From assembly GCF_014196455.1 (NCBI RefSeq), contig NZ_JACIDS010000003.1, positions 496,001 through 560,000 on the forward strand: a DNA stretch of 64,000 bases, given 5' to 3'. This document shows positions 1-15,242 of this stretch, piece after piece (position 1 is the first letter of the stretch; each line of letters opens with the position of its first letter). The notes beneath the pieces are model-generated. The model was not told the DNA's origin and did no database searches. It saw nothing but the letters and a program-made list of their open reading frames with translations. The position numbers were made by a program, and so were the translations under genes. This DNA is from Kaistia hirudinis (GTDB taxonomy: Bacteria > Pseudomonadota > Alphaproteobacteria > Rhizobiales > Kaistiaceae).

Positions 1-590
1 GGATCGGAGAACGGATTGTCGCCGCCGACCCAGAGCGTGTTCAGGACCTTGATGTCGGGCTTGGCGTATTTCGCCCCGTCCGCAAAGGAATCGGTCCAGC
101 GGTGAATGAAGGGGATGTCGAGGGCGCCGATCGCACCGATCGTGCCCGTCTTCGAGGTCAGCGCAGCCTCGACGCCGGCGAGGAAATTGACTTCCTGCTC
201 ACGGAAGCCGACGCAGGTGACGTTGGGCGCCGGGTCCTTCGGGCAGGCATCGACATCGAGGAACTTGATGTTCGGGTAGGCCTTGGCCACTTCGGCGAGG
301 ATGTCGTCGAATTCATAAGTGATGGTCACGACCAGATCGGCACCGGCACGCGCTGCCGCCTCCACGTTCTGGCGCTTCGTCGTCGGGTCGGGGCTCTCAT
401 AGAGGCGGGCGGTGCCGCCCAGTTCCTTGGCAGCGCGCTGGGCACCTTCCCAACCCTGTTTCAGGAAGTTGTCGACGCCGATCGGGCCGGTCACATAGAC
501 CAGCAACGGCTTCTTGTCCTCGGCATGCGCAGTGAGCGCGAAGGCGGAGGCGAACAGGGCAGCAATCAGCGATTTGACGGGAAGACCCAT
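1..590 (-). CDS. BMP/PnrA-family substrate-binding protein (partial)
   Basis: This gene begins at 590 and runs off the left edge; about 196 residues are visible. The product starts with a signal peptide (MGLPVKSLIAALF... to HAED) and continues as a basic-membrane-protein (PnrA-like) periplasmic fold. The family hallmarks seen are QGWEGAQRAAKELGG, GADLVVTITYEF, the VGFREQE-x-FLAGV segment and DIPFIHRWTDSFADG. Members of this family bind nucleosides or similar small molecules for ABC importers. It lies 249 bases downstream of the sugar-type permease gene, in the same direction, so it probably belongs to the same cluster but may have its own promoter. The ligand is unknown. No clear ribosome binding site precedes the chosen ATG. 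Confidence 0.8.
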   Translation of the reverse strand, partial: MGLPVKSLIAALFASAFALTAHAEDKKPLLVYVTGPIGVDNFLKQGWEGAQRAAKELGGTARLYESPDPTTKRQNVEAAARAGADLVVTITYEFDDILAEVAKAYPNIKFLDVDACPKDPAPNVTCVGFREQEVNFLAGVEAALTSKTGTIGAIGALDIPFIHRWTDSFADGAKYAKPDIKVLNTLWVGGDNPFSD

Positions 591-839
591 GGCGGCACCA
601 GAAGGATGGAGACACGTATGAGCTATCCGGTCCTCACCCCGCCGAACAGGAATCAGATTGCGATTATCGCGGCGTCGTTGGATTCGGAATTCTCGGCCGG
701 CTCTTTGCGAAGCGCGACATGACGGGGCTTCGACGAGAGTGAGCGGCAGCGGCCGAAAGCGGCAGGCCACACTCCCCTTCGCTGCGAACGAGCGCCGACA
801 GCGAGCATGACCGGTGGCAGGCCAGCATGCGAGCGCGCC

Positions 840-1865
840 TTATGGCGCGCGGGCTCCGGATGAGCGGCGGCTTTTGGCAATAAGCTGCGTCAGGACGACC
901 GCGAGCACCAGCGAGAAGCCGTAGAAGACGTCGTTCACCCAGCCGGTATAGCCGAGAAGCTGCAGGCCGGTGACGCCGGTGACGAGGAAATAGATGGCGA
1001 TGAAGACGCCGGCCACGTTGAAGCGTCCCGGACGGATCACCGTCGAGCCGAGGAAGGCGCCGGCGAAGGCCGGCAGCAGATAACCGCTCGCGACCGCGGG
1101 CACCGAGGCCCCGGTGATGCCGACGAGGAGAATGCCGGCCACGGAGGAAAGCAGCGATGACCAGATCAGCGATGCCGAGCGCATGCGCGCGACGCGGATG
1201 CCGGCGAGACGCGCCACCTCGGCATTCTGGCCGCTGAATACGAAGGCGCGGCCGGCCGGCGTGTGCTCCAGCACGTAGTAGATGCCGATGCCGATCGCGA
1301 AGGTCACGTAGATCGCGAGGGGGGCACCCAAGACATCGAGGGAGACGAGGTCGATGAGCCGTTGGTCGACGCCCGCCCGTGGCGCAGAACCCGCCCAGCC
1401 ATTGGCCGCGCCCATCAGCAGCGTGCCGGAGCCCAGCGTCGTGATGATGGAGGGCACGCCGATCCGGACAGAGATGAAGGCATTGAGCGCCCCGAAGGCG
1501 AGCGCCGCCGCGATGACGGCGAGGATCGTCCAACCGATCGGCCAGGCATAGTCCGTGTTGAGCGTCACGACCGCGGTGGCCGCTACCGCCATCACATTGG
1601 CGACCGACAGATCGAACTCGCCGCCCAGCAACGCGACGACGACGGCAAGCGTGATCACGATCTGCGTCGCCTGCGAACCGAGCACGATCTGGAAGGTCGA
1701 GACCGAGAAGAACGAGGGGACGAACAGCGAGTAGCCGGCGATCAGCAGCAGCCAGACATAGATGAGCCCGAAGCGCTCGATGTCGAGAAGGCCCGCGAGC
1801 GGGTTCAGGCGCGGCCGAGACTCTGGGATCGCGATGGCGACTTCGGCGCTCTGATTCTGGCTCAT
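840..1865 (-). CDS. Ribose-type ABC transporter permease
   Basis: Inner-membrane permease of the RbsC/BPD_transp_2 family, 341 residues. Hydrophobic helices run through almost the whole chain, and the family signature GGEFDLSVANVMAVAA lies near residues 81-96 (the GxxDLSVG-type motif of sugar permeases). It would form the transmembrane channel with the ATPase encoded just upstream; its start codon overlaps that gene's stop (ATGA). Only one permease gene is present, so a homodimer is expected as in ribose transporters. Substrate unknown: the context of sulfur-metabolism genes makes an organosulfur compound possible, which is inference only. Confidence 0.85.
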   Translation of the reverse strand: MSQNQSAEVAIAIPESRPRLNPLAGLLDIERFGLIYVWLLLIAGYSLFVPSFFSVSTFQIVLGSQATQIVITLAVVVALLGGEFDLSVANVMAVAATAVVTLNTDYAWPIGWTILAVIAAALAFGALNAFISVRIGVPSIITTLGSGTLLMGAANGWAGSAPRAGVDQRLIDLVSLDVLGAPLAIYVTFAIGIGIYYVLEHTPAGRAFVFSGQNAEVARLAGIRVARMRSASLIWSSLLSSVAGILLVGITGASVPAVASGYLLPAFAGAFLGSTVIRPGRFNVAGVFIAIYFLVTGVTGLQLLGYTGWVNDVFYGFSLVLAVVLTQLIAKSRRSSGARAP

Positions 1866-3439
1866 GCGGCGTGCGCTCCCTGGCGCTCATCGGCGGAAAG
1901 GACGTCGCGATCACGGAAACCGAGATCCGCGATCGCCGTTTCGGTAAGGTCGGGGCCGGCCAGCACGCCGGCGATGCGGCCGCGGCGCAGCACGGCGACG
2001 CGATGGCAGAGACGCGCGAGGTCCTCGGTTTCGGAACTGGCGATCAGAACCGCGACGCCCGAGGCGGCGATCTCCTCGATGCGGCGGAAAATGTCCTGCT
2101 TCGAGCCGACATCGACGCCTTGCGTCGGTTCGTGCAACACGAGGACCGACGGCGCCGTCTGCATCCACTTGCCGAGCAGCGCTTTCTGCTGATTGCCGCC
2201 GGAGAGGGTGCGGAGCGGCGCCTCGGCGCGCGCCGGGCGCACGTCGAAGGCATGCAGCAGCCGCTCCGCCGCGACCCGTTCCAGGCCCGCGCGGATCGTG
2301 CCGAAGCGTGCAAAGCGCGCGAGCACCGGCAGGCTGACATTCTCGCGCACGCTCGCCTCCTGCGCGCCGCTTGCCTTCTGCCGGTCGGCAGGAAGCAGAG
2401 CGAGGCCGGCTGCGCGGGTCGCGATCGGGTCGAGGAGGCGCGCGTCATATTTCCGCTCGCCGATTCGCACGACGCCACCGGCGGCCCGGCTGGCGCCGGC
2501 AATGAGATAGGGCAGTTCTTCGTGGCCGGCGCCGGCGAGCCCGGTGAGCCCGACGATCTCGCCGCGCTGCACCGTGAACGAGGCGCCGCTGACCGTCTCG
2601 CCGTCGAGCTCGCGCACCGAGAGGGCGAGTTCCTCGCGGGCCGGCGCCAGGGCGGGATAGAAAGTCCGGACATCCTCGCCGAGGATGTGCCGCACGAGAT
2701 CGTCCTCGCCGAGCCCGGCGACCGGGCCCTCATGGACCAGCGCGCCGTCGCGCAGCACGGTGACCGAATGGGCGATCTCAAGCACCTCGTCCAGCCGGTG
2801 GCTGACATAGATGACGCCACGGCCAGACGCCGCGAGAGAGCGGATGCCGGCGAAAAGGCGGGCGACATCGGCTTCGGGAAGAAAGGCGGAGGGCTCGTCG
2901 AGGACGATCACGCGGCCTGCCGGTCCCCCGGCGTCGATGAAGCCGCGCGCAATGGCGACGAAGGCCCGCTCGGAAGGCGAGAGCGCGCTGACCGGGCGCG
3001 ACGGATCGAGGTCGAGACCGAAGCGGGCCAGCGTCGTACGCACCCGCTCGCGTTCACGCCGCCAGGCGATGGGCGCCGCACGACCGCCGGCAAAGCGCCC
3101 GACCAGGACATTGTCGAGGATGCTCGCCTCGGCGACGAGGCCGAGATCCTGATGGACGAAGGCGAGGCCGGCGGTCCGCAGCTTCTCGGGCGAAAGGGGA
3201 AAGGCGAAATGCTCGCCGCCGATGGCGAGGGTCGTGCCCGACGCTGGGCGATGATAGCCGGAGAGGATCTTGATGAGGGTCGACTTCCCCGAGCCGTTCT
3301 TGCCGACCAGCGCGCGGATCTCGCCGGGCGCCACCGTCAGCGAGACCCGCCTCAGGGCCGTAACCCCGGCGAATGCGATGGAGGCATCGCCGAGGCTGAG
3401 GGCCGCCGGGGCAGAGGAAGCGGCGGCCGTTCCGGTCAC
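1862..3439 (-). CDS. Ribose-type ABC transporter ATPase (two nucleotide-binding domains)
   Basis: Cytoplasmic ATPase of the RbsA/MglA type, about 525 residues, carrying two tandem ABC domains. The first has a Walker A (GKNGSGKST) and Walker B (VIVLDEPSAFL). Its signature is the degenerate ALSPSERAFVAIAR. The second has LSGGNQQKALLGKWM followed by VLHEPTQGVDVG, the usual degenerate form of this family. I start it at a GTG at 3439 because that codon overlaps the stop of the upstream binding-protein gene (GTGA), typical of translational coupling; a longer reading to 3490 is possible but would overlap the neighbour more. It powers the importer formed with the permease downstream. Confidence 0.85.
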   Translation of the reverse strand: MTGTAAASSAPAALSLGDASIAFAGVTALRRVSLTVAPGEIRALVGKNGSGKSTLIKILSGYHRPASGTTLAIGGEHFAFPLSPEKLRTAGLAFVHQDLGLVAEASILDNVLVGRFAGGRAAPIAWRRERERVRTTLARFGLDLDPSRPVSALSPSERAFVAIARGFIDAGGPAGRVIVLDEPSAFLPEADVARLFAGIRSLAASGRGVIYVSHRLDEVLEIAHSVTVLRDGALVHEGPVAGLGEDDLVRHILGEDVRTFYPALAPAREELALSVRELDGETVSGASFTVQRGEIVGLTGLAGAGHEELPYLIAGASRAAGGVVRIGERKYDARLLDPIATRAAGLALLPADRQKASGAQEASVRENVSLPVLARFARFGTIRAGLERVAAERLLHAFDVRPARAEAPLRTLSGGNQQKALLGKWMQTAPSVLVLHEPTQGVDVGSKQDIFRRIEEIAASGVAVLIASSETEDLARLCHRVAVLRRGRIAGVLAGPDLTETAIADLGFRDRDVLSADERQGAHAA

Positions 3440-4590
3440 TTCACGCCCCAGATCGCCTTGAACTTCGCCGGGTAGTCGACGCCATACCAATCGGTATCGA
3501 CCTCCTTGGTCGTGTCGATCGATTGCGTGTTCTCGTGATCGAAGATCTTGTAGCCGATCTTGTAATCGTGGATTGCCGGCTGTCCGGAAAGGACACGCAA
3601 CACGTCGTCGATGACGGCGTAGGAGAACCAGGCATTCGGGCCGCCGAGATCGATCTTGAGCGGCGTGCCGCCCCGCTTCAGATTGGTGACCTGGGTCAGA
3701 ACGGCGTTGAAGCCGGCCGTCTTCACCTTGGCGCCGCGTGCGCCGGACTGCGCCAGCCCGGTCTGTACGAAGAGCGCGAAATCGTCGAACGGCGGGATGA
3801 TGTAGCCGATCGACGGATCGCGGAGCACCGCGGTGCTCGCGACATTCGCCAGGTCCGTCTGGACGGACGGCCCGAGGCTCGTCGCCGCTTCCGAGATCTT
3901 CGCATCGACGCCGAGGCGCTTCACCTCGGCGCGGAAACCGTCCAGCGTCCAGCCGGCGCTCGGAAGGCCGGTGATGTCGACAAGGAGGACATGGCCCTTG
4001 CCGGCGGAATCGGCGACGAACCAGTCGGCGAGCAGCTTGCCGGCATCGGGATAGTTGTAGCTGATGTCGGCGACATGCCCTGGCACTTTGGCCGGCGCGT
4101 CCGGACCGATCGGATGGCTGTTGATGCTGAAGACGGGAATGCCGGCCGCCTTGGCCTTGGCCACCTGCGCCGCGAAGGCGGCGGCGGGATAGCCGGTGCC
4201 GAGGACGATCGCATCCGCCTTGGCGGCAATGGCGAGTTCGAAGCCGCGCACCTGCTCGGGGACCGAGCCGCCGCCGTCATAGAGGTGCCACTTGAGGCCG
4301 CCATCGGCAGCCGCCTTTTCGCCGAGAAGGGCCCACTGCTTCAGGATGTTGGTCTTGTAGTCCGAGATCCACCAAACGGTCTTGCCGCGCGCCGGCGTCG
4401 AATCGAAGCTGGGCGGCGCCCAGAATTCCGGCGTTCCCAGATGCGCCTTCACGATCGCCTCGGCCTCGGCGACACCGGCCGGATTGTCTTCGGCCTGAGC
4501 GAAGGAGGCCGCGAGCGGCAGAGTGATGGCGAGCGCGGCGGCGGCGAGGAAGCGAGGCACCCGAAGGGCTGTAATCGGCGAGAAGGTCAT
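3436..4590 (-). CDS. Sugar-type ABC transporter periplasmic binding protein
   Basis: Periplasmic binding protein of the Peripla_BP_4 (RbsB-like) family, 384 residues. It has a clear Sec signal peptide ending near SFAQAED. The type I fold is recognisable from KTVWWISDYKTNILKQW, then a segment placing the ligand pocket (ADAIVLGTGYPAAAF), and GKGHVLLVDITG. Homologues with this N-terminal region are usually annotated as sugar binders, but the ligand cannot be read from the sequence. The gene lies 53 bases after a DszB-like gene and overlaps the ATPase gene by GTGA, so transporter and desulfurisation-like enzymes appear co-transcribed. Confidence 0.82.
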   Translation of the reverse strand: MTFSPITALRVPRFLAAAALAITLPLAASFAQAEDNPAGVAEAEAIVKAHLGTPEFWAPPSFDSTPARGKTVWWISDYKTNILKQWALLGEKAAADGGLKWHLYDGGGSVPEQVRGFELAIAAKADAIVLGTGYPAAAFAAQVAKAKAAGIPVFSINSHPIGPDAPAKVPGHVADISYNYPDAGKLLADWFVADSAGKGHVLLVDITGLPSAGWTLDGFRAEVKRLGVDAKISEAATSLGPSVQTDLANVASTAVLRDPSIGYIIPPFDDFALFVQTGLAQSGARGAKVKTAGFNAVLTQVTNLKRGGTPLKIDLGGPNAWFSYAVIDDVLRVLSGQPAIHDYKIGYKIFDHENTQSIDTTKEVDTDWYGVDYPAKFKAIWGVK

Positions 4591-4643
4591 GGTCCGGCTT
4601 TCACGATGGTCGGGCGCGATGCCCGAAGAATTGGCTTGGGGGT

Positions 4644-5720
4644 TCAGGCGGCGAGCGAGCGACCGCCCTGGCTGAGGGCTGTTTCGAGCGGCGTCCGGTC
4701 GATCCAGCTCCCGAGGTCGAAATCCTTGCGGATGAAGCCGTGGCTGAGGAGGAACTGCTTGCGCCGCCTGAGCGCCTCGAGGGCCTGCTCCGAAAAGCCC
4801 GTCGCGAGCTGTTGCTCGAGCAACGGATAGGTGGAGTCGGCGATCTCCTCGGAGACGTTGGCCTCGAGCGCCGTGATGTGGACGACCTCCTCACGATGGG
4901 TCGTCGCCCATTCGGCGGCAGCGATCGTCTGTGCCAGGACACGGGCCACGAGATCGGGCCGGTCGCGCAGCAGGCTGGCGCTCACAGTGAAGGCCTGCGG
5001 GATCGCATTGTTGTGGCGGACCAGCGGGTCGGGATGGGTATGTGCGTCATAGACGACATGCGCCCCGAGAAAGCTCTGCAGGTGAACCGAGAAGGAGCTT
5101 TCGGAAAAGATGGCGTCGACGTCGCTGCGAACGAGCGCGGCAAGGTCGCCGCTCAGGGGACTGCGCCGGCGCGCCTGCGAGAAGATCGAGCCGGTGAGCG
5201 CCGATGTATTCGCGGGATCGATGTAGGCCGCCTCGATCGGGACATCGACGAGTTCGACATCGTCGAGCGTCAGGCCTTCGCTCGCCAGGGCGACCTCATA
5301 GGTGCGGATCGCGCCGGCGCGCCAGAAATCGATCTGGTCATTGACGCGGCGCGGCACCGAGAGCCGCCTTCCCTTGAGATCGCGCACATTGCGGATACCC
5401 GATTCCGGCAGTGTGAGGATCACATGCGGTGCGTCGATCCAGGACAGGCCGATCAGCCGCGTGTCGGCGCCTTCGGAGCGCGCCCAGATCGGCGGGATGT
5501 TGCCGCCATAGCGGAAGCTGTCGTCGAGGCTGTGGTCGAAATGCGATTGCAGCTTGGTGCGGTCGGCCTGCTGCAGCGAGGCGATGCGGATGCCATCCGG
5601 CGCGAATTCGCGCTTCAGCAGCCCGAGATGGATGGCCAGGCTGAAGGCGGTCGGGACCGGGCAACGCGTATACCAGATGGTATCGACGGCGCGCGCGCCG
5701 GCAGGCGGGGCGAGGCTCAT
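4644..5720 (-). CDS. DszB-like sulfinate desulfinase homologue 1
   Basis: A 358-residue protein that databases usually label an ABC/NMT1-type binding protein, but it has no signal peptide and resembles DszB, the 2'-hydroxybiphenyl-2-sulfinate desulfinase. The catalytic residues of DszB (Cys27, His60, Arg70, from the published enzyme) have counterparts here: Cys20 in YTRCPVPTA, His60 in SHFDHS and Arg70 in FRYGGNIPP. Other shared blocks are LTLDDVELVDVP and FLLSHGFIRKDFD near the C-terminus. DszB releases sulfite from an aryl sulfinate. The start overlaps the stop of the upstream monooxygenase gene (ATGA). The substrate is not known and a pure binding role cannot be excluded. Confidence 0.72.
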   Translation of the reverse strand: MSLAPPAGARAVDTIWYTRCPVPTAFSLAIHLGLLKREFAPDGIRIASLQQADRTKLQSHFDHSLDDSFRYGGNIPPIWARSEGADTRLIGLSWIDAPHVILTLPESGIRNVRDLKGRRLSVPRRVNDQIDFWRAGAIRTYEVALASEGLTLDDVELVDVPIEAAYIDPANTSALTGSIFSQARRRSPLSGDLAALVRSDVDAIFSESSFSVHLQSFLGAHVVYDAHTHPDPLVRHNNAIPQAFTVSASLLRDRPDLVARVLAQTIAAAEWATTHREEVVHITALEANVSEEIADSTYPLLEQQLATGFSEQALEALRRRKQFLLSHGFIRKDFDLGSWIDRTPLETALSQGGRSLAA

Positions 5721-7048
5721 GTTGCGATCTCCGAACGGGACTGGGAGGAAACGGTGCGTGCGGCCGCCGAGCGGGCATTGTCCGGCGGGATGACGCCGTT
5801 GAGGTGGTAATTGCCGATCGCGTGGTGCCGCCAGCGGATGGGGTCGTGCACGGTATGGGCGCGGGCATTGCGCCAGAAGCGGTCGAGATTCCATGTCTCC
5901 AGCGAAGCGCGGGCGCCGCCGAGCGCGATGATCTCGTTGGAGGCCGTAAGCGCCGCATGATCCGCCGCGGCACGGGCTGCCGCGACGGCGAGCACGGCCT
6001 TCGTCTGAAGCGTCGGCGAATCCGGATCGGTGCGCAGAAGAGCGAGCACGCCGGCTGCCCGTTCGACGAGAGCGTCGGCCGCCTCTTCGAGCACCTTCAG
6101 TTCGCCGAAGGTGCGGATGGTGTGGGGCTCCTCGGCTGCCCGCTCGACGGCGGCTTCCGGCCAGGCGCGTGCCTTGGTGTTCAGGAAGCGCACGGCTTCA
6201 TCGAGGGCACCTGCGGCGATGCCGACATCCACGGCAGCATGCAGGAGCTGCGCGAACGTGTTGCCGCTATGGGGCCGCGGCGGCCCCGACGGGCGGATGA
6301 CGGCGATCTCCTCGACCGCCACGCCGTCGAAGCGAGCGGTGCCGCTGACCGTCGCGCGCTGACCGATGCCGCGCCAGTCGTCGAGGATCGTCAGTCCCTC
6401 GGCATCGCGGGCGATGAAGGCGTAAACGACCGCGCCGTCATCGTCCCTGGCCAGAACGGGGAAGTAATGCGCGACATAGGAGCCGGTCGTGTAGAACTTT
6501 TCGCCGTCGAGCCGGTAGCGGCCCTCGCCGGTCCGCGAAAGGCGCGTCGTGATGTCGGCGGCCGAGCGGGTCTTGGCCTCGGTGAGGGCATTGGCGACCC
6601 GCGCCCCGGCGAGGATCAGCGGCAGGAAATGGTCTTTCTGCGCTGCCGTGCCCTGGTCGGTGATCACGTCGCCGAGCGAATATTGCGCGATCAGGATCTG
6701 GGCGACGCTCGGGTTGGTCCGCGCCACCGCGGATATGACACGCGCCAGCGTCCAGTAGCTCGCCTCCGGGCCGCCATGCGAGCGCGGAACGAAGAGGCTG
6801 GTGAGGCCGAGCGCCGAAGCGCGTTCGAGTTCCACGAGCGGGGGAATGGCCTCGATGGCGCGATCGGCGGAGGCTTCGCGAATCTCCTCGGCGAAGCGCT
6901 CGGCGACCGCGACGGCCTCGTCCGCATCGAAGAGGATCGGCGTCGCGCCGTCGGGCGTGAAGCTTCCGCGATAGGTGCTCGCACGGCTGCGCCGTTCATC
7001 GGCATCGATGGAGCGCGCGGCGGCGAGCGGTGCTGCAGGGGCGTTCAT
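5717..7048 (-). CDS. SfnB/DszC-family flavin-dependent monooxygenase 1
   Basis: A 443-residue protein with the acyl-CoA dehydrogenase fold. It is closest to the SfnB branch (sulfur-acquisition oxidoreductase), judged by ALTEAKTRSAADITTRLS, KFYTTGSYVAHYFPVLA and the C-terminal LDRFWRNARAHTVHDPIRW. The His-x-x-His-Asp pattern near the C-terminus matches the active-site motif of DszC. Unlike DszC, the region equivalent to DszC His92/Tyr96 reads Gln and Ala (SVAQILIAQYS). Such enzymes use reduced flavin and oxygen to oxidise organosulfur compounds. It is one of three neighbouring paralogues and is coupled to the DszB-like gene downstream. Confidence 0.8.
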   Translation of the reverse strand: MNAPAAPLAAARSIDADERRSRASTYRGSFTPDGATPILFDADEAVAVAERFAEEIREASADRAIEAIPPLVELERASALGLTSLFVPRSHGGPEASYWTLARVISAVARTNPSVAQILIAQYSLGDVITDQGTAAQKDHFLPLILAGARVANALTEAKTRSAADITTRLSRTGEGRYRLDGEKFYTTGSYVAHYFPVLARDDDGAVVYAFIARDAEGLTILDDWRGIGQRATVSGTARFDGVAVEEIAVIRPSGPPRPHSGNTFAQLLHAAVDVGIAAGALDEAVRFLNTKARAWPEAAVERAAEEPHTIRTFGELKVLEEAADALVERAAGVLALLRTDPDSPTLQTKAVLAVAAARAAADHAALTASNEIIALGGARASLETWNLDRFWRNARAHTVHDPIRWRHHAIGNYHLNGVIPPDNARSAAARTVSSQSRSEIAT

Positions 7049-7063
7049 GATGTTTTCCCCCGC

Positions 7064-8353
7064 TCAGGTATAGAAGGTCGCCGGCGGATAGGCGCCCGAG
7101 AGCCCCCATTCGCCGAGTTCCCGCACCTTGTAGAAAACGGGGCTGTGCAGCGTGTAGGTGCGTGCGTCGCGCCAGAACCGGTCGAAGCCGTAGCGGTTCG
7201 CGGTCGAGCGCGCGCCCATCAGCTCGAAGATCGTGGAGGTGATGTCGACGCTGGCGCGCGTCGCCGTCACCTTCAGTGTCGCCACGACAACCCGGAGCTC
7301 TCCCAGAAGATCCTCGGTCAGCGCCTCGGGCGGCAGGTTCTTGGCCTGCTGCACCTTTTCCGCCGCATGATTGGCAACCGCGAGCGCCTGCTCGAGCTGC
7401 AGCCAGAGCTCACCGTAACCATTGATGATGAGATCATCGTCGGCGGCGCGTTCGGCCTTGGAGAGGATCCAGGGCCGCGTCTCGGTCTGGATGTAGTCGC
7501 GCGCCGCGCGGAGCGCGCCGATGGCCGTGCCGAGATAGACGTTGGAGAAGGCTAGGTTGCCGGAAGGCACGCCGAGCGGCCCCAGATTCGGCTCGTTCGG
7601 CTTGCCATCCTCCGGCGGCGGCCCGAAGGCGCGCAGATCCTTCTCATCGACGATGACGTTTTCGAGCACGAAGGAGCCGCTGTCGCCCTGCGGCAGGCCG
7701 ATATTGTCCCAGTCGCCAAGATGCGTCAGCCCTTCCAGCGGCGGGCGCAGGATGGCGAGGACATATTGCTGCGTATCGGCGCGGCGCACCTGCGCCCCGA
7801 TCTGGTCGGCGAAGGCGGCGCCGGTGCAGAAGCTCTTGCGTCCATTGAGCGCGAACTTGCCGTTGCCGATCGGCGTCGCGACGATCTCCGGATCGCGCGG
7901 ATTGGCGATGACGCCGCGGAAATGCTTGGTCGCGACGGCGTCCTTCCAGGCCCCGACACGCTCAGGCTCGGGCAGCGAGCCGATCCCCTCGATGCCGAAA
8001 TAATGATGCGTGAGCAGCACGCCGACCGAGGCATTGCCGGCCGCAATCTCGCGGATCACCTCGACCACCAGTCGCCAGTCGCCGCCGCCGCCACCGAATT
8101 CCTCCGGAATGAGCAAGGTCGAAAGGCCCGTCTCCTTGAGCCGGGCGATCTCGGCGCGCGGCGGCCGTCGCGTGCGATAGCCCTCCACGGCGGTCTTCGC
8201 GAATTCGGCCGAAACGTCGCGCGCGATGGCGAGCCACTTCTCCTCGAGAGCGGAATGCGGCCGATCGAACAGCGAACGGGCGCGCAGATAGTCGAGCGAA
8301 GCCGGCGCCTTTTGGGGGCGCGCGGCGATCTTGATGGGGCTGACGGCGGTCAT
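7064..8353 (-). CDS. DszC-like flavin-dependent monooxygenase 2
   Basis: A 429-residue protein of the acyl-CoA dehydrogenase superfamily, resembling the dibenzothiophene monooxygenase DszC along its length. Shared features are LLIPEEFGGGGGDWR, VREIAAGNASVG, the KSFCTGAAFADQ block (DszC: KHFCSGAKGSD), FSNVYLGTAIGAL and the C-terminal FDRFWRDARTYTLHSP. At positions equivalent to DszC His388/His391/Asp392 it has Tyr/His/Ser, and at Tyr96 it has His, so chemistry or substrate may differ. It starts 13 bases after the preceding DszC-like gene and ends 15 bases before the next. The real substrate is unknown; oxidation of a sulfur atom is the likeliest reaction. Confidence 0.8.
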   Translation of the reverse strand: MTAVSPIKIAARPQKAPASLDYLRARSLFDRPHSALEEKWLAIARDVSAEFAKTAVEGYRTRRPPRAEIARLKETGLSTLLIPEEFGGGGGDWRLVVEVIREIAAGNASVGVLLTHHYFGIEGIGSLPEPERVGAWKDAVATKHFRGVIANPRDPEIVATPIGNGKFALNGRKSFCTGAAFADQIGAQVRRADTQQYVLAILRPPLEGLTHLGDWDNIGLPQGDSGSFVLENVIVDEKDLRAFGPPPEDGKPNEPNLGPLGVPSGNLAFSNVYLGTAIGALRAARDYIQTETRPWILSKAERAADDDLIINGYGELWLQLEQALAVANHAAEKVQQAKNLPPEALTEDLLGELRVVVATLKVTATRASVDITSTIFELMGARSTANRYGFDRFWRDARTYTLHSPVFYKVRELGEWGLSGAYPPATFYT

Positions 8354-8366
8354 GATTCCGGTCTGA

Positions 8367-9611
8367 TCAGGCGAAGGAGGGGGGCTCGTGCGCGACGCCG
8401 TTCAGCGCGAAATCGCCGATGGTGCGCAGCTTGTAGTGCTGGTTGTCGTGAAGCGTGTGCGTGCGGATATCGCGCCAGAAGCGGTCGAAGCCGAAATCGT
8501 TGCGCGTCGCCCGCGCCCCGGTGACTTCGTAGATGCGCGGCGTGACGGAAAGCCCGGCGCGCGTCACGAAGGCGCGCACGGCGTTGGCCTTGACGCCGAG
8601 TTCGGCGCGCTCGCGCGCCGTGATGCTGCGGCGGCGTTCGAAGCCGTCCTCGACTTCGCGGCCGACCGAGAGGAAAAAGGCGAGGGCTGCCTCAGCCTCG
8701 GTCCAGAACTCGCCATACTGGTGCAGGACGTAGGGGTCGAGCGTCGCGCTGGCGACGCCCGAACCGGGAGCCGGCCGTGTTTCCTGGCGGGTATAGAGGG
8801 CGGCGGCGTCGATGGCCCCCAGAAGCGAGCCGAGATAATAGCTCGCGAAATAAAGCTCGCCGATCGGCACATAGAGCGGCGGAAAGCTCGTCACCGGCCC
8901 GAAGCTGGAGCGGAACACCTCGTCCGCCTTCAGCTCGACATCGTGGAACTCCAGCGAGAGCGTTTCGGCGCGGCGCAGGCCGAGATGATCCCAAGTGCCG
9001 GAAAAGACGAGGCCCTTGCGGTCGATCGGGACATAGCCATAGGCAAGCTCGGGGACGTCGTCGCGATTGGCGAGCACGGTCGTCACGTCGGCGAGCGAGG
9101 GACCGGTGTTCCAGTGCTTGACGCCATTGAGGCGGAAGCCCTGTCCGTCCGGGGTCGCCGCAAGGCTGCGTGCGCCGGGCTGGCTGACATTGCCCCAGAA
9201 CCAGCGGCCTTCGGCAGAAAGACGTTCGACCGCCTCGGCATCGCCTTCGACATCGAAGAGGCGTGCGACGCCGGAATTCGTATAGTGGTAGCCGAGCAGC
9301 GCGCCGATCGAGGCATCGCCGCGCGAGAGCGCGACGAGGATCTTCAACGCCGTCGTGATGCTGCCGCCGAGCCCGCCGAACCATTCGGGAATGAGGAGGT
9401 TGACGAGACCCGAAGACTTCAGGATCGCGACTTCCGCCGTCGGCCGGATATTGGCCTGTTCCCGTGCCGTCGCAACCTTGGCCAGCGCGGCGCCGAAGGC
9501 CTCGGCGAAGCGCAGCGGCGCCGCCGGATCGACTGACGCCGCCGGCAGGACCGTGTTCGGATCGAAGCCCTCGGCTGCCAGTTCGCCGATGGGATCGACA
9601 TGGATATTCAT
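8367..9611 (-). CDS. DszC-like flavin-dependent monooxygenase 3
   Basis: A 414-residue acyl-CoA dehydrogenase-fold enzyme of the DszC group. It keeps the DszC-type GYHYTN segment (Tyr96 equivalent), the KHWNTGPSLADV block, YFASYYLGSLLGAID and the C-terminal FDRFWRDIRTHTLHDN, with both histidines and the aspartate of the DszC active site. Of the three paralogues it has the most DszC-like catalytic residues. I start it at the ATG at 9611, which has a GGGAAG ribosome site. A GTG at 9641 overlapping the upstream stop is an alternative that adds ten residues. Expected role: FMNH2-dependent S-oxygenation. A reductase supplying reduced flavin is not seen nearby. Confidence 0.8.
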   Translation of the reverse strand: MNIHVDPIGELAAEGFDPNTVLPAASVDPAAPLRFAEAFGAALAKVATAREQANIRPTAEVAILKSSGLVNLLIPEWFGGLGGSITTALKILVALSRGDASIGALLGYHYTNSGVARLFDVEGDAEAVERLSAEGRWFWGNVSQPGARSLAATPDGQGFRLNGVKHWNTGPSLADVTTVLANRDDVPELAYGYVPIDRKGLVFSGTWDHLGLRRAETLSLEFHDVELKADEVFRSSFGPVTSFPPLYVPIGELYFASYYLGSLLGAIDAAALYTRQETRPAPGSGVASATLDPYVLHQYGEFWTEAEAALAFFLSVGREVEDGFERRRSITARERAELGVKANAVRAFVTRAGLSVTPRIYEVTGARATRNDFGFDRFWRDIRTHTLHDNQHYKLRTIGDFALNGVAHEPPSFA

Positions 9612-9637
9612 GATGATCTTCCCGATCTTGGGTCGTG

Positions 9638-10729
9638 TCACGCGACGGAACGGATGTCCGCCGTCCCGCTCGTTCCGGCAGCCTTCCAGGCCGCGACGAT
9701 CTCCTCGGCCCGCGCCAGCGGCCGCGGATCGATCCAGCCGTCGAGGTCGAAATCGGCGCGGATGAAGCCGTGGCGCAGCAGGAAATCCTTGCGCCGCCCC
9801 AGCGCCTCGACGCGGAAGGGCGAGAGGGCGATGTCGAGATGATCGGTCAGGGTCGGGCCATAGGCGACCTCGACGGCTTCCTCAGCCACACGCTGCTCGG
9901 AAGCGACGATGCGAACCGCCTCGCGGTGATGATCGCGCGCCCAGTCGGCAGCGAGGATCGAGGCCGCGAGGATCGTCGCGACTGCCTCGAAGTCCTCCTC
10001 GATGAGGCTCGCCGAGACCGTGAACGCCTCCGGAAGCGCATTGTTGGCGCGTTCCAGGGGATCGGGGTGCTGGCCGACGTCGTAGAGCGTCTCGACGCCG
10101 ACGAAGCTCGCGAGCTCGGAGGCGAATGAGGACTGCGAGTAGATTGCGTCCACTTCGCCTCGGATGAGCGCGAAGACTTCCTCGCGCTGCAGGCCACCGC
10201 CGGTGGCGAGCCCCGCAGGTCCGCGCGGCTTGCGGATGAGCCGGCTGTCGTCGAGATAGCTGCGCGCGACCGGCAGATCGACCAGCGTGACGTCGTCGAG
10301 CGTCAGCCCTTCGCTCGCAAGCGCCGCCTCATAGGCACGGAGCGCCGCCGCGCGCCAGAAATCGATGACGTCGTTCTGGCGGAGGGACAGCGCCAGGCGC
10401 TTGCGCTTGAGATCACGCACCGTCTCGATGCCCGAACCCGGCCTGACCAGGATCGGATGCGGCGTCGGCGTCCAGGACAGGGCGACGATGCGGGTATCGG
10501 CGCCTTCCGACCGCGCAAAGATGGCGGGTGTATTGCCGCCATGACGAATCGAGCTCGCGAGCTGATGGGTGAAGTGCGACGCCTGAGTCGCCCGGTCGCC
10601 TGATTGCTGGATCGAGGCGAGGCTCCGTCCGAGCGGCGCGATCGCCTCATGCAGCGTGCCGCGCTGAACCGCAAGGCCGAGCGCCGTCGGCACGGGGCAG
10701 CGTGTGTACCAGATTTGTCGTTCGGCCAT
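9638..10729 (-). CDS. DszB-like sulfinate desulfinase homologue 2
   Basis: First gene of the leftward run; 363 residues, no signal peptide. It is a paralogue of the other DszB-like protein, with WYTRCPVPTALGLAVQRG at the start, the HFTHQ and IRHGGNTP segments, LTLDDVTLVDLPVARSYLD and a C-terminal FLLRHGFIRADFDLDGWID. Cys11, His52 and Arg62 align with the catalytic Cys, His and Arg of DszB, with the same ten-residue spacing between His and Arg. Having two such enzymes beside three monooxygenases suggests two substrates or two sequential steps. Annotation pipelines may call it an ABC substrate-binding protein because DszB shares that fold. Confidence 0.72.
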   Translation of the reverse strand: MAERQIWYTRCPVPTALGLAVQRGTLHEAIAPLGRSLASIQQSGDRATQASHFTHQLASSIRHGGNTPAIFARSEGADTRIVALSWTPTPHPILVRPGSGIETVRDLKRKRLALSLRQNDVIDFWRAAALRAYEAALASEGLTLDDVTLVDLPVARSYLDDSRLIRKPRGPAGLATGGGLQREEVFALIRGEVDAIYSQSSFASELASFVGVETLYDVGQHPDPLERANNALPEAFTVSASLIEEDFEAVATILAASILAADWARDHHREAVRIVASEQRVAEEAVEVAYGPTLTDHLDIALSPFRVEALGRRKDFLLRHGFIRADFDLDGWIDPRPLARAEEIVAAWKAAGTSGTADIRSVA

Positions 10730-10747
10730 GGGTCGCCTTGTCGCCTT

Positions 10748-10830
10748 GCGAAGCCGCGAAAGCGCTTCGCCATCCTGGCTGGAGGCTAAAGACGATCAAA
10801 TCGATCTACAAAATAGAATTTTCTGATCCC
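10748..10830 (-). promoter_or_regulatory. Putative promoter/leader of the desulfurisation-like operon
   Basis: Upstream of the first gene of the run there is a markedly AT-rich patch (about 10787-10826) in otherwise GC-rich DNA, where a promoter is expected. Closer to the start codon, at 10748-10754 and 10764-10770, the arms GCGAAGC and GCTTCGC form an inverted repeat around a nine-base loop. It could be an operator or leader hairpin. No convincing -35/-10 pair could be fixed by eye. Confidence 0.3.
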
Positions 10831-11231
10831 TGCTTTCCGGGAGAAATGCTCTTTCTTCCGAACAGCGGCCGCACCTCCGATCGGGATTCTGCGGATTGAT
10901 CGAAAACCACATCGAATTTCCCGGATGGGTGTCCGCGATGAGAGAATTTGTGCTCCGTCGCAAAGGACTCAGCCGGCGACACAGTCTGCCGTCCGCCCCG
11001 GCGCGCGGAAGGAAATGCCTTCCCTTGAGGACGGCGCTCGCGCGGCGCAGCAGGATGCGGCGTCAACGGGCAGCGCTTCCGACCGAACCGTCCTTCTTGA
11101 CACCCCGCCACGATGGCGAGTGCCTCAGGCCTCTATGGATCTCGGCGCGTCCTGCGATCGGACGAGGCTCACGACCACGAGAGCCAAAGCCCTGAGCCTT
11201 GGAAATGTTCCGAAGGCACCAGAAGGGGCGC
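10831..11231. other. Gene-free stretch at the accessory/core border
   Basis: About 400 bases with no recognisable gene. Open frames here are short, arginine/serine-rich and have no family features. The stretch separates the operon promoter from the RHS fragment to its right and probably represents degraded DNA of the accessory region. Confidence 0.4.
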
Positions 11232-11524
11232 GGTTGGCGCGCCTCACCTACATGGTCTCGACGCCGTCGGGCGATAATTGGAGCTATGGCTATGACACGC
11301 TCGACCGGCTGCTGACGGCGACGAACAGCGCCGATACGAGTACCCGCCGGACCTGCAGGACAATGCCGCCGGCTCGATCGCGACAAATTCGGCCATCGGC
11401 AGCTATAGCTATCCGGCGCAGCGCGCCAGCGCGGTGCGGCCGTACGCGCCGACCTCGATCGCTGGTTCGACGCGGAGCTACGACGCGGCCGGCAATCTGA
11501 CGACGGCGACGGTCGGCACCAACC
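11232..11524 (+). pseudogene. RHS/YD-repeat protein fragment, frameshifted
   Basis: Reading rightward, the first part (to about 11335) encodes ARLTYMVSTPSGDNWSYGYD and then TLDRLLTATN, a typical RHS repeat. The reading then shifts by one frame. From about 11345 it encodes DNAAGSIATNSAIGSYSYPA, followed by YDAAGNLTTATVGTNPAETL, again classic YD-repeat sequence. There is no start, no N-terminal domain and no C-terminal toxin domain. It is a remnant of a much larger polymorphic-toxin or wall-associated RHS gene. It abuts the integrase stub without a gap, which suggests that a deletion or recombination joined the two. Confidence 0.75.
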
Positions 11525-11525
11525 C

Positions 11526-11667
11526 GGCCGAGACCTTATATGCGAGGCGCCACAGCTTCGAGCCGCCTGGATTGATCAGAAGGTGTAGGCCACCGGAATC
11601 GGAGACCTTGTAGGCCTTCTCTCGCCGCTTTGCGCTACGGATCGCTAAGTCAGTGATCGGATAGCTA
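11526..11667 (-). pseudogene. Tyrosine integrase remnant (N-terminal arm-binding domain only)
   Basis: On the minus strand the translation ITDLAIRSAKRREKAYKVSD, then GGLHLLINPGGSKLWRLAYK, matches the N-terminal DUF4102/arm-DNA-binding domain of P4/CP4-57-type phage integrases. The core-binding and catalytic domains are missing; the frame ends inside the RHS fragment. No good start codon lies at the expected place. A region upstream (about 11711-11727) contains two copies of TTGTTGG-like sequence resembling integrase arm sites. It sits directly downstream of tRNA-Arg, the usual place for an island integrase. Confidence 0.75.
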
Positions 11668-11836
11668 TCGTGCCTGTCGGTATGGCGCTCGGCCGCGCCG
11701 CTTCGAATCCAACAAAACACCAACAAATGCGTCGGACTGCACCGGACGTGGTTGGACAAACATGAATGCAGAATGGCTCAGATCCGCCGATCTATCGGCC
11801 GAGAATGACGGCCTCGGACCATGCTGGATCGGAAGG

Positions 11837-11913
<77 letters not shown>

Positions 11914-11990
11914 AGCCGAATGGGCCGCGAGGGCCTTTGAGGCCGTGCCTCCTCTAGCATGTTCGCCCGCGCCCGTGCCACCCTGTTTGC

Positions 11991-12962
11991 ATGGCTCGGG
12001 GGAACCGGAATCAGGCTCGTGGCGCCGCGCGGCCGTCCTGTCGCGGGGCGGGCGGAAACGGTCGTGCCCGCCATGCCTTTGCCATGCTCTTCGGCATCAT
12101 GGTCGCCATGGCGGTCAGTGGAGAAGCAGCGGTCGGCGGAGACTTGGCGGGCGACACGCGGACGGGCGCGACGGTCGGCAGCGCGGATCCCGGCGGCGAA
12201 CGGCTTCTGGGCGGCGCGGGCTGTGCGCTCGTCGCCGGCGAGGGCGGCGTTGTCGCCTCCGTCATCGATGGCGATACGGTGCAGCTCGACAGCGGCCTCG
12301 AAGTGCGCCTCGCGGGCACGCAAGCGCCGAAACTGCCCTTGGACCGCCCCGGCTTCGTCGCCTGGCCGCTCGCCGATGTGGCCAAGGCCGCGCTGGAGCG
12401 CCTCGCGCTCGGCCAGGCGGTGGAATTGCGCTATGGCGGCGCGCGCCGCGACCGCTATGGCCGCGCGCTCGCGCAATTGTTCGTGATCTCCGAGGATGGC
12501 GGCGAGACCTGGCTGCAGCGCGAGATGGTGGCTGCCGGGCTCGCACGGGTCTATTCCTTCGCCGACAATCGACAATGCGTCGGTGCACTGATCGAGGCGG
12601 AGCGTACAGCGCGCCGTTCTGCACTTGGCCTTTGGGCCGATCCGTATTACGTGATCTACGCCGCGACCGAGCCTGGTCTTGCGCGTCGGCATGACAGCTA
12701 TGATCTGGTGGAAGGACGTGTTCTTTCCGTCGGTGAACGCGGTCCTATCGTCTATCTCGATTTCGGGCTTACCTGGTCGACGGACTTCACGGTGGTCCTG
12801 TCGAGCGAGGCCATGGCCGCGCTTGCCGAGAGCGGCTGGAAGGCAGGCGATTTTCAAGGGCGGCGCGTGCGCGTGCGAGGATGGATCGAGCAGCGCGGCG
12901 GTCCGAGCATCCGGGTGACGCATCCCGAACAGCTCGAACTGCTGGATGATGGTGGACGATGA
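11991..12962 (+). CDS. Thermonuclease-family (SNase-like) protein
   Basis: The central part (about residues 85-200) is a staphylococcal-nuclease-like domain. VIDGDTVQL holds the metal-binding aspartates, VRLAGTQAPK replaces the usual RLxGIDAPE, and RDRYGRALAQLF is the second family motif. The C-terminal third (from HDSYDLVEGRVL) looks like an OB-type extension seen in secreted relatives. The start is uncertain: an ATG at 12084 would begin with a more convincing hydrophobic signal (MLFGIMVAMAVSGEAAVGG). In the motif RLAGTQAPKL the acidic residue normally after the proline is lysine, so nuclease activity is not assured. The stop overlaps the next gene's start (ATGA). Confidence 0.75.
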   Translation: MARGNRNQARGAARPSCRGAGGNGRARHAFAMLFGIMVAMAVSGEAAVGGDLAGDTRTGATVGSADPGGERLLGGAGCALVAGEGGVVASVIDGDTVQLDSGLEVRLAGTQAPKLPLDRPGFVAWPLADVAKAALERLALGQAVELRYGGARRDRYGRALAQLFVISEDGGETWLQREMVAAGLARVYSFADNRQCVGALIEAERTARRSALGLWADPYYVIYAATEPGLARRHDSYDLVEGRVLSVGERGPIVYLDFGLTWSTDFTVVLSSEAMAALAESGWKAGDFQGRRVRVRGWIEQRGGPSIRVTHPEQLELLDDGGR

Positions 12963-14461
12963 GCGAAGGCGCGGCGGGTGCGGTGAGCCCCCGGAGCGGC
13001 AGGCCGTGGTGGCGCGGCACGGGATTGGTGGTGCTGGCGGGGCTGCTCCTCGCCGGCTGCACGACTGCGCTCGAAGGAACCTACGGGCCGCCGCAGACCG
13101 TCGCCGGCGCCACGACCCCGCCCGCGGTCGATCCCACCCAGGCGCGGATCGGCGCCGAGGAACACCCGCGCATCGTCGCGAGCTATGGCGGCGTCTATCA
13201 TGACGACAAGCTCGAGAAGACGCTCGCGCGCATCGTCGGCCGCTGCGTCGCCGCATCGGACGACCCCTCGCAGTCCTATCGCATCACGATCCTGAACAGC
13301 CCCTCGGTCAACGCCTTCGCGCTGCCCGGCGGCTATCTCTATGTGACGCGCGGCCTGCTCGCACTCGCCAATGATTCGTCCGAGGTCGCGGCGGTCATCT
13401 CGCATGAGATGGGCCATGTGACCGCGAACCACGCCATGCAGCGCCAGAACAAGGCGCGCGCGGCCGTGATCGTCAGCCGCGTCGTCTCCGATGTGCTGCA
13501 GGATGGCGAGGCGGGCCAGCTCGCGCTCGCCTCCAGCCAGCGCACGCTCGCCGCCTTCTCGCAGCAGCAGGAGCTGGAGGCCGATGCGATCGGCGTGCGC
13601 ACCATCGGCAAGGCCGGCTACGATCCCTTCGCGGCGGCGCGCTTCCTCGACCTGATGGGCCGCTATGCCGAGTACAAGCAGGCCGGCCAGGTGCAGGACA
13701 AGCGTCCCGATTTCCTGGCGAGCCACCCGGCGACGCCGCAGCGCGTCGAATTCGCCATCCGCGCGGCCCGCCAGTTCGGCGCGCCCGGCATCGGCGAGGT
13801 CGACCGCAACCGCTATCTCGAGGGCATCGACGGCATCGTCTTCGGCGACGATCCCTCGCAGGGCTTCGTGCGCGGCAAGACCTTCCTGCACCCCACGCTC
13901 GGCATCGGTTTCGCGGTTCCCGACGGCTTCGTGCTCGACAATACGAGCGATGCCGTCCTTGCCACAGGGCCGGATGGCACGGCGCTGCGTTTCGACGGCG
14001 CCAATCTGCCGGCCGGCTCGTCGCTCGCGACCTATATCGCCTCCGGCTGGGTCAACGGGCTCGACGCCGCGTCGATCAAGACCTTCCAGGTGAACGGGCT
14101 GGAGGCCGCATCCGCCAAGGCGCAGGCCAAGGGCTGGGTCTTCCGCATCGCCGTCATCCGCGTCGGTCCGAGCGCGACCTATCGCTTCATCTTCGCCAAT
14201 GAGAGCGATACGCCCGGCCTGCAGGCGGCCGCCGATGCGACGATCCAGAGCTTCCGACAGTTGACGCCGCAGCAGATCGCGGCGCTGAAGCCGCTCCGCG
14301 TGCGCGTCATCACGGTGGCGCAGGGCGATACCGTCGAGAGTCTCGCCGGCCGCATGCGCGGCGTCGATCGGCCGCTCGATCTCTTCCGCGTCCTCAACGA
14401 CATCAAGCCCGGCGCGTCTCTGCCGGCCGTCGGCGAGAAGGTGAAGATCATCGCGGAATAG
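12959..14461 (+). CDS. M48-family metalloprotease, lipoprotein
   Basis: A 500-residue zinc protease. A transmembrane/lipoprotein signal ends in the lipobox LLLAGC at about residue 38. The catalytic motif HEMGHVTANHAMQ (HExxH) lies near residue 147 and the third zinc ligand in QQELEADAIGV further on. A C-terminal part includes a LysM-like or SH3-like tail (VITVAQGDTVESLAGRM). Relatives such as BepA/LoiP act in the periplasm on misassembled outer-membrane proteins. It is translationally coupled to the thermonuclease-like gene upstream. Confidence 0.88.
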   Translation: MSEGAAGAVSPRSGRPWWRGTGLVVLAGLLLAGCTTALEGTYGPPQTVAGATTPPAVDPTQARIGAEEHPRIVASYGGVYHDDKLEKTLARIVGRCVAASDDPSQSYRITILNSPSVNAFALPGGYLYVTRGLLALANDSSEVAAVISHEMGHVTANHAMQRQNKARAAVIVSRVVSDVLQDGEAGQLALASSQRTLAAFSQQQELEADAIGVRTIGKAGYDPFAAARFLDLMGRYAEYKQAGQVQDKRPDFLASHPATPQRVEFAIRAARQFGAPGIGEVDRNRYLEGIDGIVFGDDPSQGFVRGKTFLHPTLGIGFAVPDGFVLDNTSDAVLATGPDGTALRFDGANLPAGSSLATYIASGWVNGLDAASIKTFQVNGLEAASAKAQAKGWVFRIAVIRVGPSATYRFIFANESDTPGLQAAADATIQSFRQLTPQQIAALKPLRVRVITVAQGDTVESLAGRMRGVDRPLDLFRVLNDIKPGASLPAVGEKVKIIAE

Positions 14462-14510
14462 CGGTGGGTCGCTTCTCCTCCTCGGGGAGGGGTAGGCGGC
14501 GTTGGCGCAT

Positions 14511-14549
14511 TCCCTCTCCCGCGAAGCGGGGGAGGGCGAGGGAGGGGGC
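14511..14549 (+). repeat. GC-rich palindromic repeat, copy 1
   Basis: The arms CCCTCTCCCGC and GCGGGGGAGGG surround a three-base loop (14512-14536), followed by GCGAGGGAGGGGG. The reverse complement of the same element recurs about 80 bases away, and a shorter version occurs near 55267. It lies just after the M48 protease gene and may also act as a weak terminator. Confidence 0.6.
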
Positions 14550-14619
14550 CAACCTGCACGATCGCTGCAAGCTTCGGCGCCAGCCCTGAACTCTATCAAT
14601 TCCCACAGCCTCGGCCTCG

Positions 14620-14661
14620 ACGCCCCCTCCCCAACCCTCCCCCGCAAGCGGGAGAGGGGGC
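14620..14661 (-). repeat. GC-rich palindromic repeat, copy 2 (inverted)
   Basis: Reads as the near reverse complement of the copy at 14511: GCCCCCTCCCCAACCCTCC followed by CCCGCAAGCGGGAGAGGGGG. The hairpin arms CTCCCCCGC/GCGGGAGAG are separated by AA. Such elements are common between alphaproteobacterial genes. Confidence 0.55.
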
Positions 14662-15190
14662 AGGCCGGTGCGCGCCGGGCGAGCCAGGAAAATAATCTAT
14701 CCCCGCCCCCTCTCGCCGGGCGCATACTCCTTTCATCCCCGCCCACCGAAGAGGGCGAACCGGTCGTTCCGTTTGCGGGTGGGGCTCGGCGGGCCTTGGG
14801 GGCGAGGGGTCACGAGCCTCGTTCCGAAGGGCGGCCGGAACTCCGATGCGCCGGGTCCGTACACGCGGGCCAGCGGCGGGCGTTCGGGCTTTCCGCAAGG
14901 GGAGATCCGGACGCGGGACTTGCCGCCGGGTGACCCAGCAACGAAACACCCACGGTCCATCGGTACCGGCCGCAGATCTCGTCGGCGCGGGGCGCCGGCT
15001 GCCGCAGACGGGCGGCTCGGGCACCTCATCCATCATCTTCAGCCGGCGCGCTGCCCGCGCGCAGGCACTCGGCCGCCCCGCGCGACCTCTTCGTTCACAA
15101 CCCTGCGGCCAAGGCCGGCGGGGTGCATCGGGCTGGCCGCTGTGTCGTCGTCTGTCTGGAGCAGCCCATGGGGACTGCAGCCTGTGACCC

Positions 15191-15222
15191 AAACAAAAAG
15201 GGCAGGCCGGAGCCTGCCCTTT
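15191..15222 (-). terminator. Rho-independent terminator of ilvD
   Basis: Perfect 11-base stem AAAGGGCAGGC/GCCTGCCCTTT (15197-15207 with 15212-15222) around a CGGA loop. Read leftward it is followed by TTTTTGTTT. It ends the ilvD transcript 20 bases after the stop codon. Confidence 0.85.
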
Positions 15223-15242
15223 CAGGATGCGTTATCGGGCGC

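Follow-up and report, generated by a model that had tools for sequence, protein, structure and literature searches.

An eight-gene block of Kaistia hirudinis with DszB-like proteins, DszC/SfnB-type flavoproteins and a CUT2 importer: a probable sulfur-scavenging operon

The gene block

Near the left end of a 64,000-nucleotide stretch of Kaistia hirudinis DNA (contig NZ_JACIDS010000003.1, positions 496,001 to 560,000; called the window below), eight leftward genes lie between positions 10729 and 840. Two of their products belong to the DszB family, two are DszC-type flavoproteins and one is of the SfnB type, and the other three make up a CUT2 ('ribose-type') importer (Table 1). They are transcribed in the order DszB1, DszC1, DszC2, DszC3, DszB2, binding protein, ATPase and permease. 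Judged by its sequence, the block is probably a real operon that functions in sulfur scavenging, and a variant of the DszB/DszC-type clusters not met before. DszB is familiar mainly from fuel-desulfurising bacteria, and the step of the 4S pathway that lies between DszC and DszB is performed by DszA, a luciferase-like monooxygenase (LLM). A block that has two desulfinases and three oxygenases, and in which no DszA is found, poses the question of whether S-oxygenation and desulfination alone can strip sulfur from a compound.

Open reading frame (ORF) analysis of the window showed that every frame of the block is open, with a GC content at third codon positions (GC3) of 0.80-0.88. Read in the direction of transcription, the intergenic gaps measure -4, 13, 15, -4, 53, -4 and -4 nt. 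The ATPase gap of -4 assumes the GTG start at 3439; with the TTG start at 3490 it would be -55. A longer ORF of DszB2, reaching to 5894, overlaps the preceding gene, and the ATG at 5720 is its likely start. Because scans for promoters and terminators gave nothing above shuffled sequence, it is from the spacing that we infer a single transcript; terminator-like sites in 1-5000 and 10000-13000, in particular, do not exceed those of shuffled sequence. Control by a riboswitch or another RNA element was also considered, and the Rfam scan of 1-16000 returned only tRNA above the gathering score.

An earlier note on this DNA, in which DszB1 was named DszB-like 2, DszB2 DszB-like 1 and DszC3 SfnB-like, described eight closely packed leftward genes. 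Their coordinates and order are as it gave them, with gaps of -4 to +53 nt. Its family labels (two DszB-like, two DszC-like, one SfnB-like, a binding protein, an ATPase and a permease) also hold, as the assignments by hmmscan (Pfam and NCBIfam) and by a phmmer sequence search of the PDB agree. Each of the five enzymes aligns with DszB, DszC or SfnB along almost its whole length, the weakest match being that of DszB1 to DszB (E 3e-15).

Table 1. Features of the block and the neighboring tRNA gene
Feature	Position	Strand	Basis or remark
DszB1, DszB-like desulfinase, 363 aa	9638..10729	-	phmmer to DszB 2de2 E 3.1e-15 over 6-337
DszC1, DszC-type flavin monooxygenase, 424 aa, GTG start	8367..9641	-	NCBIfam DszC 249 bits vs SfnB 188; DszC 4doy E 2.5e-67
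DszC2, DszC-type flavin monooxygenase, 429 aa	7064..8353	-	NCBIfam DszC 248 bits vs SfnB 225; TdsC 5xb8 E 2.8e-71; tree
DszC3, SfnB-type flavoprotein, 443 aa	5717..7048	-	TIGR04022 SfnB 412.3 bits; DszC 183 bits; tree
DszB2, DszB-like desulfinase, 358 aa	4644..5720	-	phmmer to DszB 2de2 E 8.1e-22; Cys-His-Arg-GG
CUT2 periplasmic binding protein (Peripla_BP_4), signal peptide by eye	3436..4590	-	Pfam PF13407 E 4.6e-18; no NCBIfam match
CUT2 ATPase, two ABC domains, likely GTG start 3439	1862..3439	-	NCBIfam AraG/RbsA 371/344 bits, under cut-offs
CUT2 permease (BPD_transp_2)	840..1865	-	Pfam PF02653 E 2.2e-18; AraH model 103 bits, under cut-off
tRNA-Arg (CCT)	11837..11913	-	alignment with four same-genus genomes stops here

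The DszB-like desulfinases

DszB1 and DszB2 are 52% identical to each other, and 28% and 30% identical, respectively, to the DszB of pMyong1. Of the residues of DszB, C27 is critical and H60 and R70 are implicated, the RXGG motif is highly conserved among DszB homologs, and the cofactor-free desulfination is described as a unique mechanism (PMC6100217). In the alignment with 2de2, C27, H60 and R70 correspond to C11, H52 and R62 of DszB1. DszB2 also retains their equivalents, and RXGG, which completes the Cys-His-Arg-GG set, is present in both proteins. Unlike the binding protein of the operon, neither has a signal peptide that could be seen by eye. Pfam yields no match for DszB1 and an NMT1 match for DszB2 at 22.1 bits (cut-off 20.5), and in NCBIfam both match the SsuA binding-protein family under its cut-off. 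The pair looks like a duplication within this lineage, because the two are sisters in a tree (SH-aLRT 95), albeit a quick one with long branches.

The DszC/SfnB-type flavoproteins

The best solved relative of each of DszC1, DszC2 and DszC3 is DszC or TdsC, followed by MsuC and a probable monooxygenase (8cda), and all three proteins score higher with PF08028 than with PF00441. Their identities to pMyong1 DszC are 35%, 36% and 31%, respectively. None reaches the 850-bit cut-off of the NCBIfam DszC equivalog model (249, 248 and 183 bits), nor the 430.9-bit cut-off of the SfnB model TIGR04022 (188.2, 224.7 and 412.3 bits), of which DszC3 is 18.6 bits short. The motif FDRFWR is found in DszC1 and DszC2, and LDRFWR in DszC3. 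DszC1 and DszC3 retain both histidines of the DszC motif RTHxLHD, whereas DszC2 retains only the second (RTYTLHSP). In quick trees with long branches DszC1 and DszC2 fall into a clade with pMyong1 DszC (support 97) and DszC3 groups with SfnB-like proteins (92). A YEG-type motif, which holds the catalytic glutamate of acyl-CoA dehydrogenases (ACAD), was looked for and not found in either of two ACAD loci in this genome.

The missing DszA step

Among ORFs of at least 150 amino acids in the window and the adjacent 19.9 kb stretch L033, 84 kb in total, there is no match to the LLM (DszA-type) profile. The genome has ten LLM (Bac_luciferase) matches, the sole one on this contig being about 334 kb away from the operon. 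Because no DszA-type gene was found nearby, the sulfur of the substrate is likelier to be outside a ring (in a thiol, thione, thioether or sulfinate) than in a thiophene. Flavin-reductase domains are matched six times in the genome, and a single open frame has two NIR_SIR (sulfite/nitrite-reductase) matches. Two of the ten LLM genes lie on another contig of this genome, C4 (stretch L034), in a further sulfur-type cluster that also has a pair of SfnB-like genes and transporter genes of the Ssu type. A DszB-like gene with an ACAD/DszC-like gene and no LLM match recurs in three other stretches (L118 and, outside the 80 loci described below, L028 from the same family and L160, a Paracoccus plasmid); arrangements without an LLM are thus uncommon, yet this is not the sole case.

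The importer and its relatives

The importer consists of a Peripla_BP_4 protein, a double-domain ATPase and a BPD_transp_2 permease, as expected of CUT2, and reaches none of the sugar equivalog cut-offs. The comparison covered 15 stretches, and in only seven of them (L139-L143, L154 and L162) was a match to its binding protein found, the nearest being 26-31% identical. The ATPase is 40-47% identical to those of the same seven loci, compared to 34-38% for the CUT2 importers of sulfur clusters, and the permease 36-44% compared to 26-29%. By these identities the importer is of a CUT2 lineage other than that of the sulfur-cluster importers compared.

A hydrolase gene of the allantoinase, allantoate/hydantoinase or AtzE type lies close by in five of the seven related loci (L139-L142 and L162), and in L140, L141 and L142 it directly follows the permease gene. 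No such hydrolase is found in the four ORFs scanned in L143, and in L154 an argE-type gene is situated further away. These calls come from chosen neighboring ORFs, with PuuE and AtzE matches under the curated cut-offs and hydantoinase/carbamoylase matches above them. Because the nearest relatives of the importer are thus, in five of seven loci, close to ureide, hydantoin or amide hydrolase genes, the label 'sugar-type' may be misleading. A second CUT2-type importer, which resembles models of putative vitamin B6 importers (under their cut-offs), lies just left of the window (L033:15946-19470), with an M20 deacylase and a GntR/UTRA regulator close by.

Distribution

A scan of GTDB contigs with one protein gave no relative. 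A scan with an alignment as the query gave at least 552 relatives among at least 590 pattern matches, from which the best 80 were kept, none of them more than 47% identical. The locus counts that follow are approximate, as they are profile counts made by script, include DszB fragments above 140 bits and are lowered by short contigs. At least two DszB-family ORFs are present in 54 of the 80 loci and an LLM in 62. Where both flanks extend for about 10 kb (63 loci), at least two DszB copies occur in 48, an LLM in 47 and a DszC-/ACAD-like gene in 15, but only one locus (L118) has a DszC/ACAD-like gene without an LLM. Two DszB and three DszC/ACAD-type genes occur together in none of the 80.

DszB-like proteins with the catalytic residues of DszB are found in many proteobacteria and in a few actinobacteria and others. 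In many genera their genes occur together with importers and with DszC/SfnB, ACAD-like or LLM genes, and the clusters have the appearance of sulfur-scavenging systems. The Cys-His-Arg-GG set is kept in 141 of 181 DszB-family ORFs; the share of Cys is biased upward because one of the scan patterns (WYTRCPVP) contains it, whereas His and Arg are in neither pattern. Copies with Ser in place of the Cys, which parallel the inactive C27S mutant, have no signal peptide seen by eye. An extra copy of this type, possibly a pseudo-enzyme partner, is often found in Pseudomonas and Burkholderia clusters of the DszB family (L041, L100, L108, L110, L113, L120 and others). Two weak matches, in L071 and L050, begin with signal-like sequences and probably represent true binding proteins.

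Window protein P0008 matches 87 plasmid records, all at less than 60% identity and mostly from Sinorhizobium and Rhizobium. Eleven of the 40 listed are annotated, all as 'ABC transporter substrate-binding protein'; in another search, a few DszB-like records carry other names. The following counts include the source genome, and the genomes of the order and the class were sampled from larger groups. At E 1e-40, P0006 has matches in 3 of the 14 genomes of the genus (the best others being 31-32% identical), and at E 1e-70 in 7 of 397 order genomes (best other 42%). DszB2 was found in 7 of 397 at E 1e-40 (best other 44%), P0003 in 6 of 397 at E 1e-30 (others 28-32%) and P0007 in 5 of 385 class genomes at E 1e-60 (others 37-38%). 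Orthologs of the operon were not found in 13 congeners.

The search for the same gene order in other genomes, proposed in the earlier note, yielded no second whole operon in the genomes searched (14 of the genus, 397 of the order, 385 of the class, the best 80 GTDB loci, and plasmids). That note had also regarded multiple copies together with a sugar-type importer as unusual. Two or more DszB copies turn out to be usual, although the whole mix was not met elsewhere. The importer parts are indeed of the CUT2 type, but CUT2 genes beside SfnB/DszC genes are also found in Rhizobium, Shinella and two genomes of the same genus. In the literature covered, the matches listed from open PMC full text (subscription papers were outside the scope), neither this arrangement nor a broad family of DszB-like proteins is described.

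Comparison with known systems

Like the dszABC operon for dibenzothiophene (4S pathway; pMyong1 copy, L158), the block combines a DszB-family desulfinase that has the catalytic residues of DszB with a DszC-family monooxygenase. Unlike dszABC, it has no DszA/LLM, contains extra copies and has an importer of its own; the low identities to DszB and DszC given above, and motif residues that are not kept (GNASSENN and Y63/Q65, discussed below), also set the two apart.

The bdsABC operon of Gordonia terrae C-6, for benzothiophene, likewise removes sulfur with a desulfinase and a monooxygenase that depends on reduced flavin mononucleotide (FMNH2). It is functional, has an LLM as its third component, and is up-regulated together with several ABC importer genes (PMC3868597). 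However, bdsC is an alkanesulfonate-type monooxygenase, which was not found here, and in what that source describes the bds operon has three genes and no importer.

DszB-ACAD clusters of Rhizobiaceae and relatives (for example L038-L040, L059 and L088) resemble the block in having a DszB-like protein, flavin enzymes and an importer, and L059 and L088 have two DszB copies, as here. They differ in that the importer is of the Opp type, an LLM is present and the acyl-CoA-dehydrogenase-like proteins belong to another clade. Seven stretches have a CUT2 importer adjoining DszC/SfnB-type genes (L035, L145, L146, L147, L152, L155 and L156); all were found via DszC-type queries, six have an LLM and none has a DszB match. 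Among them L145, L146, L147 and L155 (Shinella) and L156 (Rhizobium) come closest, with at least one SfnB-type protein of the DszC3 clade and at least one DszC-type protein of the DszC2 clade, but four of these five have an LLM, and their importers are of the other CUT2 lineage.

SfnB and MsuC, which function in the oxidation of dimethyl sulfone and methanesulfinate, respectively, share the flavoprotein superfamily and a role in sulfur metabolism with the enzymes described here. Their LLM partner, of the SfnG/SsuD type, was not found here, and DszC3 stays below the SfnB cut-off. In Gordonia 135, which is without a DszB analog, dibenzothiophene changes the expression of sfnB and acyl-CoA dehydrogenase genes (PMC11852219).

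Proposed function and alternatives

We lean towards reading the block as an accessory operon that scavenges sulfur, without DszA, from an organosulfur compound that is small and polar. The CUT2-type importer would bring in the compound, and one or more of DszC1, DszC2 and DszC3, which by analogy would depend on FMNH2, would oxygenate its sulfur to a sulfinate, with reduced flavin supplied by a reductase encoded elsewhere in the genome. The two DszB-type cysteine desulfinases would then remove the sulfinate as sulfite, to be reduced for assimilation. Here the substrate class, the reaction order, sulfite as the product and control by sulfur limitation are presumed. A route from uptake through S-oxygenation and a sulfinate to sulfite had been suggested before; the catalytic residues of DszB, DszC/TdsC as the best relatives and the secreted-looking binding protein fit it, but the gap left by DszA had gone unremarked. 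It is rather doubtful that the substrate is a thione or thiol N-heterocycle (of the thiohydantoin, thiouracil or thioimidazole type), taken up by a ureide/hydantoin-related importer and oxygenated at its sulfur by the DszC/SfnB-type enzymes, without DszA, to a heteroaryl sulfinate, from which the paired DszB-type enzymes would release sulfite. No pathway of this kind is shown in the literature covered.

Several observations weigh against the scavenging operon as proposed. The DszC motif GNASSENN (PMC4839641) is absent from DszC1, DszC2 and DszC3, which have GNVSQPGA, GVIANPRD and NALTEAKT instead. Residues Y63 and Q65 of DszB, named in PMC6100217, are replaced by His and Leu in both DszB1 and DszB2 in the 2de2 alignment, and because of this the substrate of the pair probably differs from that of DszB. 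With these residues changed and GNASSENN absent, action on the known substrates should not be assumed. Neither an LLM nor a DszC/ACAD-like gene is present in 15 of the 63 full-flank DszB loci, and some DszB-like proteins may serve other ends. Ser replaces C27 in 22 of 181 DszB-family ORFs, so that membership of the family is no proof of catalysis. The ten LLMs encoded elsewhere in the genome could act in trans, and the sulfur compound need not be the importer's cargo. Finally, no sigma-70-like promoter was found in 1-5000 or 10000-13000, and neither that scan nor the Rfam scan of 1-16000 gave a recognizable regulatory site.

The in-trans possibility amounts to a full 4S-like pathway acting on a sulfone or on sulfur within a ring, with the DszA step performed by an LLM encoded elsewhere in the genome, for example beside the SfnB cluster of contig C4. 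Such a route is unlikely, though it deserves some weight: two of the genome's LLM matches lie in that stretch with SfnB-like and Ssu-type transporter genes, and an LLM accompanies DszB in most full-flank loci (47 of 63). The 84 kb around the operon are nevertheless free of LLM matches, and it is the desulfinase and oxygenase genes that are multiplied here, not joined by an LLM.

Two further explanations are both quite improbable. In one, the DszC-like proteins oxidize alkanesulfinates or sulfones in the manner of MsuC and SfnB, and the DszB-like proteins act on a minor sulfinate or have another role. Solved relatives of DszC1 and DszC2 do include MsuC (6u76; E 3.5e-54 and 1.2e-64, respectively), and DszC3 nearly reaches the SfnB cut-off. 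However, DszC1 and DszC2 are closer to DszC/TdsC than to MsuC, the DszB triads are intact in two copies, and sulfonates derived from MsuC activity need an LLM (SsuD/MsuD), which was not found here. In the other, the DszB-like proteins are non-catalytic cytoplasmic binders in an operon that degrades a compound without sulfur, as might be suspected from the SsuA profile match under its cut-off, the Cys-to-Ser copies in the family, and the ureide/amide hydrolase-type genes that accompany the importer's relatives. Such a role is at odds with the retention of Cys, His, Arg and GG in both DszB1 and DszB2, whose best solved match is DszB itself, and with the three DszC/SfnB-class proteins of the same operon.

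Genomic location

A tRNA-derived att repeat was looked for, but no 14-base segment of the tRNA-Arg gene recurs exactly within the 84 kb, and no integrase was recognized next to the gene; in G001, a genome of the same genus, the tRNA-adjacent ORF encodes an AI-2E-type transporter. The alignment of the window with G001 and three other same-genus genomes (G004, G005 and G013) takes in the tRNA gene and stops at 11837. That with G008 starts at 12210, and the tRNA was not found in the G008 stretch. Beyond the tRNA the flanks differ between species, although G005 and G013 share a flank and G001 and G008 share a block. Because the alignments end at the tRNA and the flanks beyond it differ, a variable site beside tRNA-Arg is suggested, with the operon at the break in synteny.

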